NCBI RefSeq assembly: GCF_016925635.1
Contig: NZ_CP070490.1
Coordinates: 3,602,001-3,666,000 of the forward strand
Reading direction: 5' to 3'
DNA length: 64,000 bases
DNA from: Lysinibacillus fusiformis
GTDB lineage: Bacteria > Bacillota > Bacilli > Bacillales_A > Planococcaceae
Below the pieces are notes generated by a model. The model was not told the origin of the DNA. It made no database searches and saw only the letters and a program-made list of their open reading frames with translations. Position numbers and translations under genes: made by a program. Of the stretch, positions 40,475 through 44,053 are shown piece after piece; position 1 is the first letter of the stretch, and every line of letters starts with the position of its first letter.

Positions 40475-41602
40475 ATGAAGATTATTACAATTGAACCGAC
40501 GCCAAGTCCCAATTCTATGAAGATTGTTGTTGATACAGAGCTACCGTTCGGGAAAAGCTATAATTTTACAAAAGATAATAAAGACGAAGCAACTGGCGAG
40601 GCTGCTGCTATTTTAGCGATTGAAGGAGTAAAGGGCGTTTACCATGTAGCCGATTTCTTTGCTGTTGAGCGTAATGCCAAATATGCATGGGAAGGCATTC
40701 TAGCAAGTATTCGTCAAGTGTTAGGGGAAGATGTCCAAACACAAGAAGAAACCGTTGTAGCCAATGAATTTTATGGAGAGGTTTACGTGCATGTACAGTT
40801 TTACAAGCAGGTGCCTTTACAAGTAAAAGTTTTTGATAATCAACGCGAGTATCGTATTAGCTGTGGTGACCGTTTTGTCGATGCGTTTAATCAAATCATT
40901 GAATCAGCAGTAGATGAAAACTATATTTTCCAACGTAAGTGGATTGATTATGGTGTTCGCTACGGTGAGCTGGAAGAAATTGCAGAAACCGTCCAACAGG
41001 AGATTGATGTCACTTATTCTGCTGACCGTTTAGCAGAAATTGTCGCAGCTATCAATAATGATGGCGAAAAAGCAGTGTTGAAAACGGATAAACTAAAAGT
41101 GACGGTGGAGCAGTTCAAGCAACCAGAATGGGAGAAACGCTTCCAATTACTTGACCAAATGGCTGACCCTGAGCTAGAAGATCTACCGCTATTGGATTTG
41201 GCCTTACAGGATGAACAAATGTCCATTCGTCGATTAGCAACAGTATACTTAGGCATGATTGAGGATGTGGCTGTTGTACCTTATTTAGAAAGAGCCCTAC
41301 AGGATAAAAGCGCAGCGGTACGCCGAACAGCAGGTGACTGCATGAGTGACCTTGGCTTAGTAGAATTTGAAGAAGCCATGCTACAAGCCTTACAGGATAA
41401 AAACAAATTGGTTCGCTGGCGCGCAGCGATGTATTTATATGAAGTCGGCACGGAGCAATCCTTACCAGCATTGAAGGCTGCTGAGGATGACAAAGAATTC
41501 GAAGTGAAGCTACAAGTGAAAATGGCCATTGCCCGTATCGAACAGGGCGAAGAAGCAAAAGGCTCGGTCTGGAAGCAAATGACCGAATCCCGTCAACAAT
41601 AA
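40475..41602 (+). CDS. Conserved virulence factor C-like protein (NifU N-terminal domain plus HEAT repeats)
   Basis: A 375-residue protein. Residues 1-85 (IEPTPSPNSMKIVVDTELPF...) form a scaffold Nfu/NifU N-terminal domain. About residues 230-360 consist of short helical pairs such as EDLPLLDLALQDEQMSIRRL and VVPYLERALQDKSAAVRRTA, which are HEAT-like repeats. This layout is that of CvfC (YpgR in B. subtilis), a conserved Firmicute protein whose loss reduces virulence in S. aureus; the mechanism is unknown. It starts 12 bases after the ABC-F gene with AAGGAGCG upstream, so the two are likely co-transcribed. Confidence 0.8.
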   Translation: MKIITIEPTPSPNSMKIVVDTELPFGKSYNFTKDNKDEATGEAAAILAIEGVKGVYHVADFFAVERNAKYAWEGILASIRQVLGEDVQTQEETVVANEFYGEVYVHVQFYKQVPLQVKVFDNQREYRISCGDRFVDAFNQIIESAVDENYIFQRKWIDYGVRYGELEEIAETVQQEIDVTYSADRLAEIVAAINNDGEKAVLKTDKLKVTVEQFKQPEWEKRFQLLDQMADPELEDLPLLDLALQDEQMSIRRLATVYLGMIEDVAVVPYLERALQDKSAAVRRTAGDCMSDLGLVEFEEAMLQALQDKNKLVRWRAAMYLYEVGTEQSLPALKAAEDDKEFEVKLQVKMAIARIEQGEEAKGSVWKQMTESRQQ

Positions 41603-41607
41603 TCAGG

Positions 41608-41633
41608 AAAAACCAGCAGACGCTGGTTTTTTT
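41608..41633 (+). terminator. Terminator of the ABC-F/cvfC pair
   Basis: AAAAACCAGC pairs with GCTGGTTTTT around a short loop, followed by T residues. Confidence 0.88.
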
Positions 41634-41656: not shown

Positions 41657-42552
41657 GCTCTAATCAGTGGGTGAAGTTGATCCTGAATAGTGAGGGTCCG
41701 CTCCAAGAAGTTGGAAAGTCGCTCGTAAGAAATGAGGAGTCGCTCTAAAAAGAGAGAACCTGATCTAAAAAGGGGTAAGACCGCTCCTAAGAAGTGAAAG
41801 TCGCTCTTAAGAAGTGAGAACCCGCTCTAAAAAGAGAGAGAGAGAGCCACTCGTAGAAATGAGGACCTGCTCTCAAAAATGATGAAGCCGCTCCTAAGAA
41901 GTGAAAGCCCGCTCTAAAAAGAGAGAAAGCCGCTCTTAAGAAGTGAGAACCCGCTCTAAAAAGAGAGAAAGCCGCTCCTAAGAAGCGAAAGCCCGCTCTA
42001 AAAAGAGAGAAAGCCGCTCTTAAGAAGCGAATCCCCGCTCTAAAAGGTGAGAAAGTCGCTCCTAAGAAGCGAAAGCCCGCTCCAAAAAGAGAGAGAGCCG
42101 CTCCTAAGAAGCGAATCCCCGCTCTAAAAGGTGAGAAAGCTGCTCCTAAGAAGTGAATCCCCGCTCCAAAAAGAGAGAAAGCCGCTCCTAAGAAGCGAAT
42201 TCCCGCTCTAAAAAGAGAGAAAGCCGCTCCTAAGAAGCGAAAGCCTGCTCCAAAAAGAGAGAAAGCCGCTCCTAAGAAGCGAATCCCTGCTCAAAAAGTT
42301 AAGAAAGCCGCTCCTAAGAAGTGGGAACCCGCTCTAAAAAGGGGTAAGACCGCTCCTAAGAAGCGAAAGCCCGCTCCAAAAAGTTAAGAAAGCCGCTCCT
42401 AAGAAGCGAATATCCGCTCTAAAAGGTGAGAAAGCCGCTCCTAAGAAGTGAAAACCCGCTCTAAAAAGGGGTAAGACCGCTCCTAAGAAGCGAATCCCTG
42501 CTCTAAAAGGTGAGAAAGCCGCTCCTAAGAAGCGAAACCCCGCTCCAAAAAA
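41657..42552. repeat. Tandem array of about 43 units of 21 bp in two alternating types
   Basis: Almost every unit begins GCTC and is 21 bp long. Type A is GCTCCTAAGAAGYGAAWSCC plus C; type B is GCTCYAAAAAGAGAGAAAGC plus C. From about 41890 onwards they alternate strictly, giving a 42-bp period. The first ten units (41657-41870) are degenerate and include length variants, while the core is nearly uniform, as expected for repeat expansion. Each type has short self-complementary parts (CGCT...AGCG; CTCT...AGAG). There are no unique spacers, so it is not CRISPR. An A-tract recurs every 42 bp in phase with helical turns. No gene is assigned. Confidence 0.9.
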
Positions 42553-42820: not shown

Positions 42821-44053
42821 ATGACAGTAACTAGTTTAAAGACAACGAAATCGTATGTGCGTGATCGTGAGGCGGTCATTGCCTTAACACAGAAGCTCGT
42901 ACGCATTGAAAGCGTTTACCGTGAGAACGATCCGAAGGGCAATGAGCAAGAGGTGGCAACTTTTGTAGCGGCGTATTTACGAGATATTGGGATCGAGACG
43001 CATATCGAGGAGGTTGTGCCAGGGCGACCAAATGTCATTGGTATTATTGATTCGGGCAAGCCTGGGAAAACATTACTTTTCGAAGGACATACGGATGTGG
43101 TGACAGAGGGCAATCGAGAGGCTTGGGCCTATGATCCATTTGGAGCAGAAATTGTCGATGGGCGTATGTATGGCAGGGGAACGAATGATACAAAGGGGAA
43201 TCTTGCTTGTATGATTACGGCTTGTCAGTCTTTGCTACTAGATCAAGAGGCGTTTACGGGCAAGATTATTTTATGTATTCCTTGTGATGAAGAAGGGCTT
43301 ATGCTTGGCATTAAACATTTTATTAAAAATGGCTGGGCTGATGGCGTGGATGGGGCGATTATCTGTGAGCCACAGGAAAATAATGTGTGTATTGCCCAGC
43401 GTGGGGCTATTCGTTTACAAGTAGATATTTTTGGTAAAATGGCGCATGGTGCCATTTCGTGGAGCGGTATCAATCCTAACTGGCGTATGGCACGTTTCAT
43501 CGTAGAGCTTGAAAAATTAGAAAAAGAGGAGCAAGCACGGTTAGGGCGTGATCCAATGCTGAATTGGCCTTCTATTACACCAACGATTTTACGTGCGCCG
43601 GTAAAAGGCGATGCACAAATCAATGTCATTCCTGATCATTGTATGACGACGCTCGATATTCGTACGGTGCCTGCGCAGGATCATGATGAACTGCTGGGCA
43701 AAATCGAAGCGATTATTAAACGATTACAAGCAAATGATCCTGATTTCAAAGTTGAATTAACGGTCCTTGATAACCGACCTGCAACAGCAACAGCGAAGGA
43801 AGACCCGGTTGTACAGGCTATTTATGAAGCTGTGGCAGAGGTAACAGAAAAGGAACCAAAATATAACGGTGTTCCAGGTGCGACAGATGGTACGTTTCTT
43901 CATGTGCATGGTATTCCGATTGTAACGGTTGGTGCAGGAGATCGAGAAATCCCTCATCAAATCAATGAGTATGTAGATATTGAAGAGTTGGCAGAAACAA
44001 CGGCAATTTACCGTTTGGCAGCATTAAAATTTTTGGCGGGTGATGCACAATGA
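42821..44053 (+). CDS. M20 family metallopeptidase/deacylase (ArgE/DapE-like)
   Basis: A 410-residue di-zinc amidohydrolase. Metal-site motifs are present: FEGHTDVV (about 88-95), GRGTNDTKGN (about 119-128, bridging Asp), CDEEG (catalytic Glu, about 154-158), ICEPQ and the late PHQINEY. The dimerisation lid lies between. Family members remove acyl groups or cut small peptides (acetylornithine, succinyl-diaminopimelate, carnosine). AGGAGGTCC precedes ATG 42821. It is first in a ten-gene operon with dehydrogenases and a peptide ABC transporter, so it probably hydrolyses an imported amide or dipeptide. Confidence 0.87.
   Translation: MTVTSLKTTKSYVRDREAVIALTQKLVRIESVYRENDPKGNEQEVATFVAAYLRDIGIETHIEEVVPGRPNVIGIIDSGKPGKTLLFEGHTDVVTEGNREAWAYDPFGAEIVDGRMYGRGTNDTKGNLACMITACQSLLLDQEAFTGKIILCIPCDEEGLMLGIKHFIKNGWADGVDGAIICEPQENNVCIAQRGAIRLQVDIFGKMAHGAISWSGINPNWRMARFIVELEKLEKEEQARLGRDPMLNWPSITPTILRAPVKGDAQINVIPDHCMTTLDIRTVPAQDHDELLGKIEAIIKRLQANDPDFKVELTVLDNRPATATAKEDPVVQAIYEAVAEVTEKEPKYNGVPGATDGTFLHVHGIPIVTVGAGDREIPHQINEYVDIEELAETTAIYRLAALKFLAGDAQ

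Follow-up and report, generated by a model that had tools for sequence, protein, structure and literature searches.

Helically phased 21-bp repeat arrays in Lysinibacillus fusiformis and its relatives: candidate rows of recognition sites with satellite-like evolution

The tandem array described here lies in a stretch of 64,000 nucleotides of the Lysinibacillus fusiformis chromosome (the window), in the gap between two called genes of the same strand; the features of the locus are collected in Table 1. The sequence itself, TRF and a table of the individual units all bear out that the array is real, and a terminator-like stem precedes it, as the preliminary description of this DNA had reported. 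TRF assigns periods of 42, 84 and 126 bp across the array, with scores of 812-985.

Table 1. Features at the array locus (positions in the window)
Feature	Positions	Strand	Remarks
Upstream gene	40475..41602	+	375 aa; Nfu_N, Virulence_fact and HEAT repeats; array behind its 3' end
Intrinsic-terminator-like stem-loop and T run	41606..41633	+	behind the upstream gene
Degenerate 5' part of the array	41657..41888	+	irregular unit lengths; unit table; TRF rows begin at 41698-41796
Homogeneous core of the array	41889..42552	+	32 units of two alternating types; sequence, TRF and unit table
Downstream gene	42821..44053	+	410 aa; M20 peptidase family; context only

All units of the core are 21 bp long except for one of 22 bp and a truncated last one, the anchor [CT]GCTC occurs once per 21 bp, and 16 units of a TAAGAAG type strictly alternate with 16 units of a second type. 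The latter comprises several subtypes (AAAAAGAGAG, AAAAGGTGAG, AAAAAGGGGTAAG and AAAAAGTTAAG), which fits the higher-order periods of 84 and 126 bp. The strict alternation claimed at the outset for the whole array therefore holds in the core but not in the 5' part, which includes pieces of 43, 41, 25 and 20 bp and has two consecutive units of the TAAGAAG type (41782 and 41802); the contrast of a degenerate 5' edge with a homogenised core was correctly recognised. The array is likewise no simple one-unit VNTR, and no CRISPR, as its units run head-to-tail without unique spacers. Head-to-tail homogenised repeats with a higher order are those of a minisatellite or satellite.

The upstream protein shows up to 98% identity to proteins at named Lysinibacillus loci. 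Behind the same gene in these relatives, 25 loci were of sufficient length for a test of repeat lag, and a lag of 21 was the best (p<=0.01) in four of them, namely in L. capsici, where the array at this site is degenerate, L. boronitolerans, L. contaminans and L. mangiferihumi. The OT4b.31 locus gave a lag of 17 (p 0.010), and no significant repeat lag was found at the remaining 20, which argues that the array is dispensable at its site. The units of L. contaminans and L. mangiferihumi are unlike those of the window, indicating repeated origin or replacement of 21-bp arrays downstream of this gene. In the same two species the next called gene differs from the 410-aa gene; the downstream operon is thus not the constant, and the proposed link of the array to a catabolic operon loses its support because 21-bp repeats behind the same upstream gene precede different genes.

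The array belongs to a family. DNA searches with two arrays, combined with TRF, identified at least 33 arrays that are non-coding, 150 bp or longer and periodic in multiples of 21 in the genome of the window itself (G000; 5.01 Mb in a single contig), at least 31 of which carry the anchor [CT]G[CA]TC every 21 bp; both counts are lower bounds, since the genome was read in part. Arrays were compared with those of a second, close species (G010) and a third species (G013), for which all counts are among the arrays listed, reaching 3.05 Mb. Arrays shorter than 150 bp or lying more than half inside a called ORF were dropped before counting (rows G000 675752 and G013 2357279, 2979614 and 3046530, the first of the G013 rows being anti-oriented), and the weak arrays 199758 and 2392858 were left out of the final table. 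Three arrays that lack the anchor (G000 2588436 and 3508017, G010 2320306), each with one chance anchor on the other strand, stand outside the 31 and 17 anchor arrays of these two genomes. The pattern CGCTCN{36,38}CGCTCN{36,38}CGCTC gave 297+212 matches in G000 against 3+1 for a reversed control, which excludes a chance origin.

When used as a DNA query the window array matched five of the 32 genomes of the genus, its own included. The anchor pattern was present in 25 of the 32, and in only 11 were there at least 10 matches clearly exceeding the reversed control. In G007, G008 and G030 the reversed control (CTCGC every 42 bp) was itself abundant, and these genomes may carry arrays with another anchor. 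A stricter pattern was found in 48 of 261 family genomes and six of 19 genera, again counting the window's own; matches occurred in 30 of the 68 genomes of genus g17. Recurrence at many G000 sites and in other species means that the array is not peculiar to one strain, which, together with the lack of a conserved position and of transcription, was the case in which the preliminary description would have taken it for probable neutral expansion. All 48 positive genomes are among the 197 with SpoIVA and none is among the 64 without it; by genus the figures are 6/13 and 0/6, and a link with spore formation is at most suggestive, being weak at this level and confounded by phylogeny.

Twelve pairs of sites in G000 and G010, accounting for 12 of the 18 G010 arrays and including the site in the window, are orthologous as judged by the proteins on both sides. 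Every G000 array has its own homogenised dimer consensus, the best G010 match of an orthologous G000 array is the ortholog in five cases out of 12, and in 10 out of 12 another G000 array outscores it. Such behaviour, along with the homogenisation at 42, 84 and 126 bp, the degenerate edge, the 20 of 25 relatives without a significant lag and the degenerate L. capsici array, would be expected of a neutral or selfish satellite which expands by slippage and unequal exchange, spreads by ectopic recombination, survives largely in one orientation owing to the different treatment of the two strands in leading and lagging replication, and serves no function in the host. Such a replication-polarised neutral satellite is the principal and a serious rival to the reading developed below; we regard it as possible, albeit doubtful.

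The behaviour of the anchor speaks against neutrality, as column-specific constraint is foreign to a neutral satellite. The distance from anchor to anchor is 21 bp in 800 of 875 cases in G000, 363 of 401 in G010 and 205 of 264 in the listed arrays of G013. In arrays that were 200 bp or longer and had eight or more units, mean disagreement was 3.5% in the anchor columns versus 16.3% in the rest for G000, 2.8% versus 18.7% for G010, and 5.1% versus 13.1% elsewhere for the G013 arrays listed; across the three species the anchor columns are thus 2.6 to 6.7 times less variable than the others. The anchor was the quieter part in 31/31, 17/17 and 12/14 (arrays listed) arrays, respectively, or 60 of 62 overall. 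Phasing the units by the anchor gives the anchor columns an advantage, so a control placed pseudo-anchors at each of the remaining columns: those at columns 8-18 brought little or no gain in G000 and G010, and those at columns adjoining the anchor brought some of the gain. The quietest block of G013 is displaced, beginning at column 2 or 3 and covering columns 2-7. The bases that follow the anchor also differ, being A-rich at positions 7-9 in G000 and G010, with G at position 7 and mostly GT at 8-9 in G013.

The recurrence of the 21-bp step with unrelated sequences also weighs against a neutral satellite. A second family has CGCGGGT at steps of 21 bp and was present in 13 of the 32 genus genomes with zero control matches, and 21-bp-period arrays with unrelated anchors exist (CGCGGGTATT; GGGAATCGCCACTAAA). 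Some genomes of genus g17 carry CGCTC[AG]TAAA followed by some 10-11 differing bases, with a step of 21 bp in G182 and of 20 bp in G171, the latter being not exactly two helical turns; the [AG]TAAA pair pattern was matched in three of 10 chosen genomes.

In G000 the second-family unit (CGCGGGTATT plus 11 bp, 21-bp step) occurs at C1:675752 (L221), 2588436 (L207), 2448164, 3454892 and 4134544, with CGCGGGT on the lagging strand at four of the five loci; in G001 seven of eight loci among those listed are on the minus strand in the first replichore. In G005 (assembly 86% complete) numerous arrays of a 21-bp monomer, of the form CGCTCAACnnnnnnnnAAGT, are spread over several loci.

The orientation of the arrays was compared with the direction of replication. 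In G000 dnaA is located at 1.803 Mb, and the GC skew of the sampled stretches flips there and at about 4.30-4.40 Mb. Among sampled anchor arrays the leading strand carries the anchor in 31/31 (G000) and 17/17 (G010); in G013 the count is 12/16 among the arrays listed, or 14/19 with the dropped rows. The purine-rich strand is leading in 33/33, 17/18 and, among the arrays listed, 16/16, respectively. Among 133 gaps of G000 that contain no array, the purine fraction exceeds 0.5 in 74%, with a mean of 0.525 against 0.629 for the arrays. The leading strand of the G000 arrays has 48% G+C and 15% T versus 31% and 34% in ++ gaps, a composition so far from local non-coding DNA that strand-biased mutation alone is insufficient to explain it and that it counts against the neutral satellite. 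Two anchorless arrays may be added: G000 C1:3508017-3508334 (L219), of period 21 and directly behind a called gene, has a leading strand with 73% purines, and G010 C1:2320306-2320555 (L160), with a period of 126 bp, breaks the purine rule and is probably another kind of repeat.

Outside these species the picture is mixed. In G182, of genus g17, nine out of nine loci are codirectional with the fork, assuming that the contig starts at the origin, as a dnaA fragment at its start suggests; its anchor strand is not purine-rich (0.41-0.54), and the purine rule fails. In G164, from a third genus, one of four loci is codirectional, and in G171 two loci only 26 kb apart (326487 and 352310, the latter with two anchors only) have opposite orientations. 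The two close species G000 and G010 thus show very strong fork polarity, but the rule is not universal. The G000 arrays lie 0.22-2.38 Mb from dnaA, and no significant enrichment towards the terminus was found (61-64% in the ter half; KS p 0.11, 0.25 and 0.59).

Most arrays are also aligned with genes, as called by a simple ORF rule and not from annotation. In G000 30 of 33 arrays lie behind a gene codirectional with the fork, as against 76 of the 134 gaps that contain no array (Fisher p 0.0002), in a sample with 231 codirectional and 102 head-on genes; divergent gaps house two of the 32 arrays with both neighbours called and 41 of 134 control gaps. Both figures would suit a 3'-end element of transcription or supercoiling, a functional analogue of BIMEs that absorbs supercoils or blocks read-through or antisense transcription, as would the strong curvature predicted in the window's clade and the minus strand of the window array, which has six hairpin-plus-T sites. 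We consider this account unlikely, because antisense terminator-like sites across all arrays are no more frequent than in shuffled sequences (54 vs 54.0, 21 vs 18.7 and 9 vs 16.3), whereby a general role as antisense intrinsic terminators was rejected, because terminators before arrays are no commoner than in control gaps (10/30 in G000 vs 28/76), and because some arrays between head-on genes keep the orientation of the fork.

Most arrays are in keeping with gene direction as the origin of the polarity; some are discordant. In four anchor arrays of the two close species the upstream ORF opposes the fork (G000 2021358, 3844321 and 4941454; G010 2772681), and all four arrays follow the fork. For the first the opposing ORF has only 71 aa, and under a limit of 80 aa the gene upstream becomes a codirectional one; sizeable genes that oppose the fork (463, 517 and 451 aa) precede the other three, of which the last two are the same orthologous site. 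In G013 the discordant arrays 521062 and 2033043 follow the fork, three arrays in convergent gaps (384474, 565245 and 993469) follow the head-on gene, and array 1035447 follows neither. Fork direction is thus the better predictor of orientation in two species, and not in G013.

DNA curvature was predicted with a wedge model. The ratio of end-to-end to contour length over 105 bp was 0.846 for the window array against 0.948 for column-permuted repeats, and among periods of 15-27 the curvature of the window dimer was greatest at 21. The equation of 21 bp with two helical turns in the preliminary description is supported. Arrays were more curved than their permuted controls in 29/30 cases in G000, 17/18 in G010 and 8/11 in G013, and dimers fell into the top 10% of dinucleotide shuffles in 22/30, 12/16 and 2/15, respectively (both G013 counts among the arrays listed). 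Out of eleven other units two, both from g17 (G175 and G176), reached the top 10%, and in the same model the units of CGCGGGT, L. mangiferihumi, L. contaminans, G005 and G008 were not curved beyond shuffles. Curvature as a property common to all arrays was rejected on this basis, as it holds in the window's clade and not in G013; the suggestion of bending therefore stands for the strongly curved window array but does not extend to related arrays in general.

Folded as RNA, the G000 and G010 arrays surpass shuffled sequences on either strand, but the leading strand of the G013 arrays listed shows no such excess, so that a string of mini-hairpins, another early suggestion, is not supported as a general role. 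This folding, the equivalence of 21 bp to seven codons and the ORFs of up to 329 aa in several sister arrays might point to a structured RNA or a protein-coding repeat, a possibility which is scarcely credible. The window array contains no ORF of 80 aa, differences between TGA and CGA place stops in its sole open-looking frame, and the periods of some arrays are no multiple of three (83, 125 and 167 bp, and 20 or 41 bp in g17), which led to the rejection of a coding array; Rfam gave two matches, both far below the cut-off.

Fork polarity could also mean that the arrays are polar motifs for DNA translocation by FtsK or SpoIIIE. The SpoIIIE octamer of Bacillus is GAGAAGGG and GAAGAAG is the Lactococcus-type heptamer. 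GAAGAAG occurs on the leading strand of the arrays at 119.7 per 100 kb against 23.2 outside, a five-fold enrichment in sequences that are purine-rich anyway, and is absent from the lagging strand; the restriction of arrays to genomes with SpoIVA (48/197 vs 0/64, though by genus only 6/13 vs 0/6) points the same way. The octamer is not enriched in the arrays (4.8 per 100 kb, from one site, vs 4.1 outside) despite being fully polar outside them, GGGNAGGG is absent from the arrays, enrichment at the terminus is not significant, and polarity is partly lost in G013 and G164, all of which makes a role in translocation very unlikely. In the sampled non-array DNA of G000, GAGAAGGG reaches a leading-strand density of 4.1 per 100 kb, with 0 on the lagging strand, and it may be the translocation motif of this genome. 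The Chi site of Bacillus is AGCGG, which was considered and rejected: it is frequent on the lagging strand of the arrays (2302.9 vs 14.4 per 100 kb), i.e. in the wrong orientation.

The reading that we favour, tentatively and with somewhat less than even confidence, is that the arrays are helically phased rows of recognition sites for a putative DNA-binding protein, curved in this clade and evolving like satellites. It builds on properties established by computation, namely the spacing, the lower variability of the anchor, recurrence, orthologous sites, polarity in two species and predicted curvature, from which we infer both the bound protein and any effect on the cell. The some thirty related blocks suggest protein-binding or bending sites and not random repeats, and a protein array, one of the roles first proposed, is plausible for the window array. 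The site would consist of the anchor [CT]G[CA]TC and a clade-specific extension (A-rich, NGGT in G013, or [AG]TAAA in some genomes of the related genus). As anchors repeat every two helical turns they come to lie on one face of the DNA, along which the protein could load as a polar nucleoprotein row, with predicted curvature as an addition in the window's clade. The position of arrays behind genes and their fork polarity make chromosome architecture a likelier task than regulation of one operon, and this task might be insulation, handling of supercoils or marking of fork direction. The arrays would be born, homogenised and lost like satellites. One common protein is hard to square with the 21-bp arrays that have unrelated anchors. 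The dispensability of the array at the window's site, the limited spread of curvature and of fork polarity, the failing purine rule in G182 and the 20-bp step of G171 also weigh against this reading.

A bolder version, which we hold to be rather improbable, is that the arrays mark chromosome polarity in spore-forming relatives of Lysinibacillus: a protein would read anchors two turns apart, the arrays would record fork direction behind genes, and the 3' extension would change by clade (NNAAA, NGGT, [AG]TAAA) because protein specificity and satellite co-evolve, as in the fast-evolving centromere DNA of eukaryotes. Intergenic tandem repeats of bacteria are usually attributed to slippage; the G000 chromosome contains dozens with a common two-turn step, a constrained anchor, sites conserved across two species and a replication-linked strand bias. 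Should a protein bind to these arrays, they would constitute a tractable bacterial satellite DNA with an architectural task and fast co-evolution of repeat and reader; if nothing binds, they offer a clean system for measuring the effect of replication polarity on repeat survival.

In the parts of the literature that were searched no description of these arrays was found. Among known systems, REP and BIME elements have many extragenic copies, regularly spaced tandem forms and several binding proteins (gyrase for BIME-2), and REP units are palindromic with alternating orientation (PMC2817692). The likeness lies in many extragenic copies per genome (at least 33 non-coding arrays in the parts of G000 that were read) and in regular tandem spacing; units of the window type differ in being direct repeats of one orientation (40 anchors on one strand of the window array, 0 on the other) with a two-turn phase, and in being fork-polar in two species. 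Prokaryotic satellites are intergenic tandem repeats with families scattered across a genome (PMC6749651, a paper whose main text lacks the words Lysinibacillus, '21 bp' and helical). The arrays resemble them in this, and are set apart by a constrained anchor and the fork polarity of many arrays. Phased A-tract curved DNA has A-rich blocks in helical phase; the arrays share the A-rich blocks and, in the window dimer, a predicted curvature peak at period 21, but curvature holds for only part of the related arrays. The iterons of plasmid origins are direct repeats of about 19-22 bp bound by protein on one face of the DNA; the arrays have direct repeats of similar length with a protein row on one face that is only putative, but form dozens of chromosomal arrays behind genes, and the window array has no BLASTN match in plasmid records, nor any in phage records. 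Finally, the KOPS and SRS sequences of FtsK and SpoIIIE are short, with an orientation fixed to replication, and are dispersed single octamers without a spacing rule; the Bacillus octamer is not enriched in the arrays, which come close to such a fixed orientation in G000, G010 and G182 (if its contig starts at the origin) and less so in G013 and G164.
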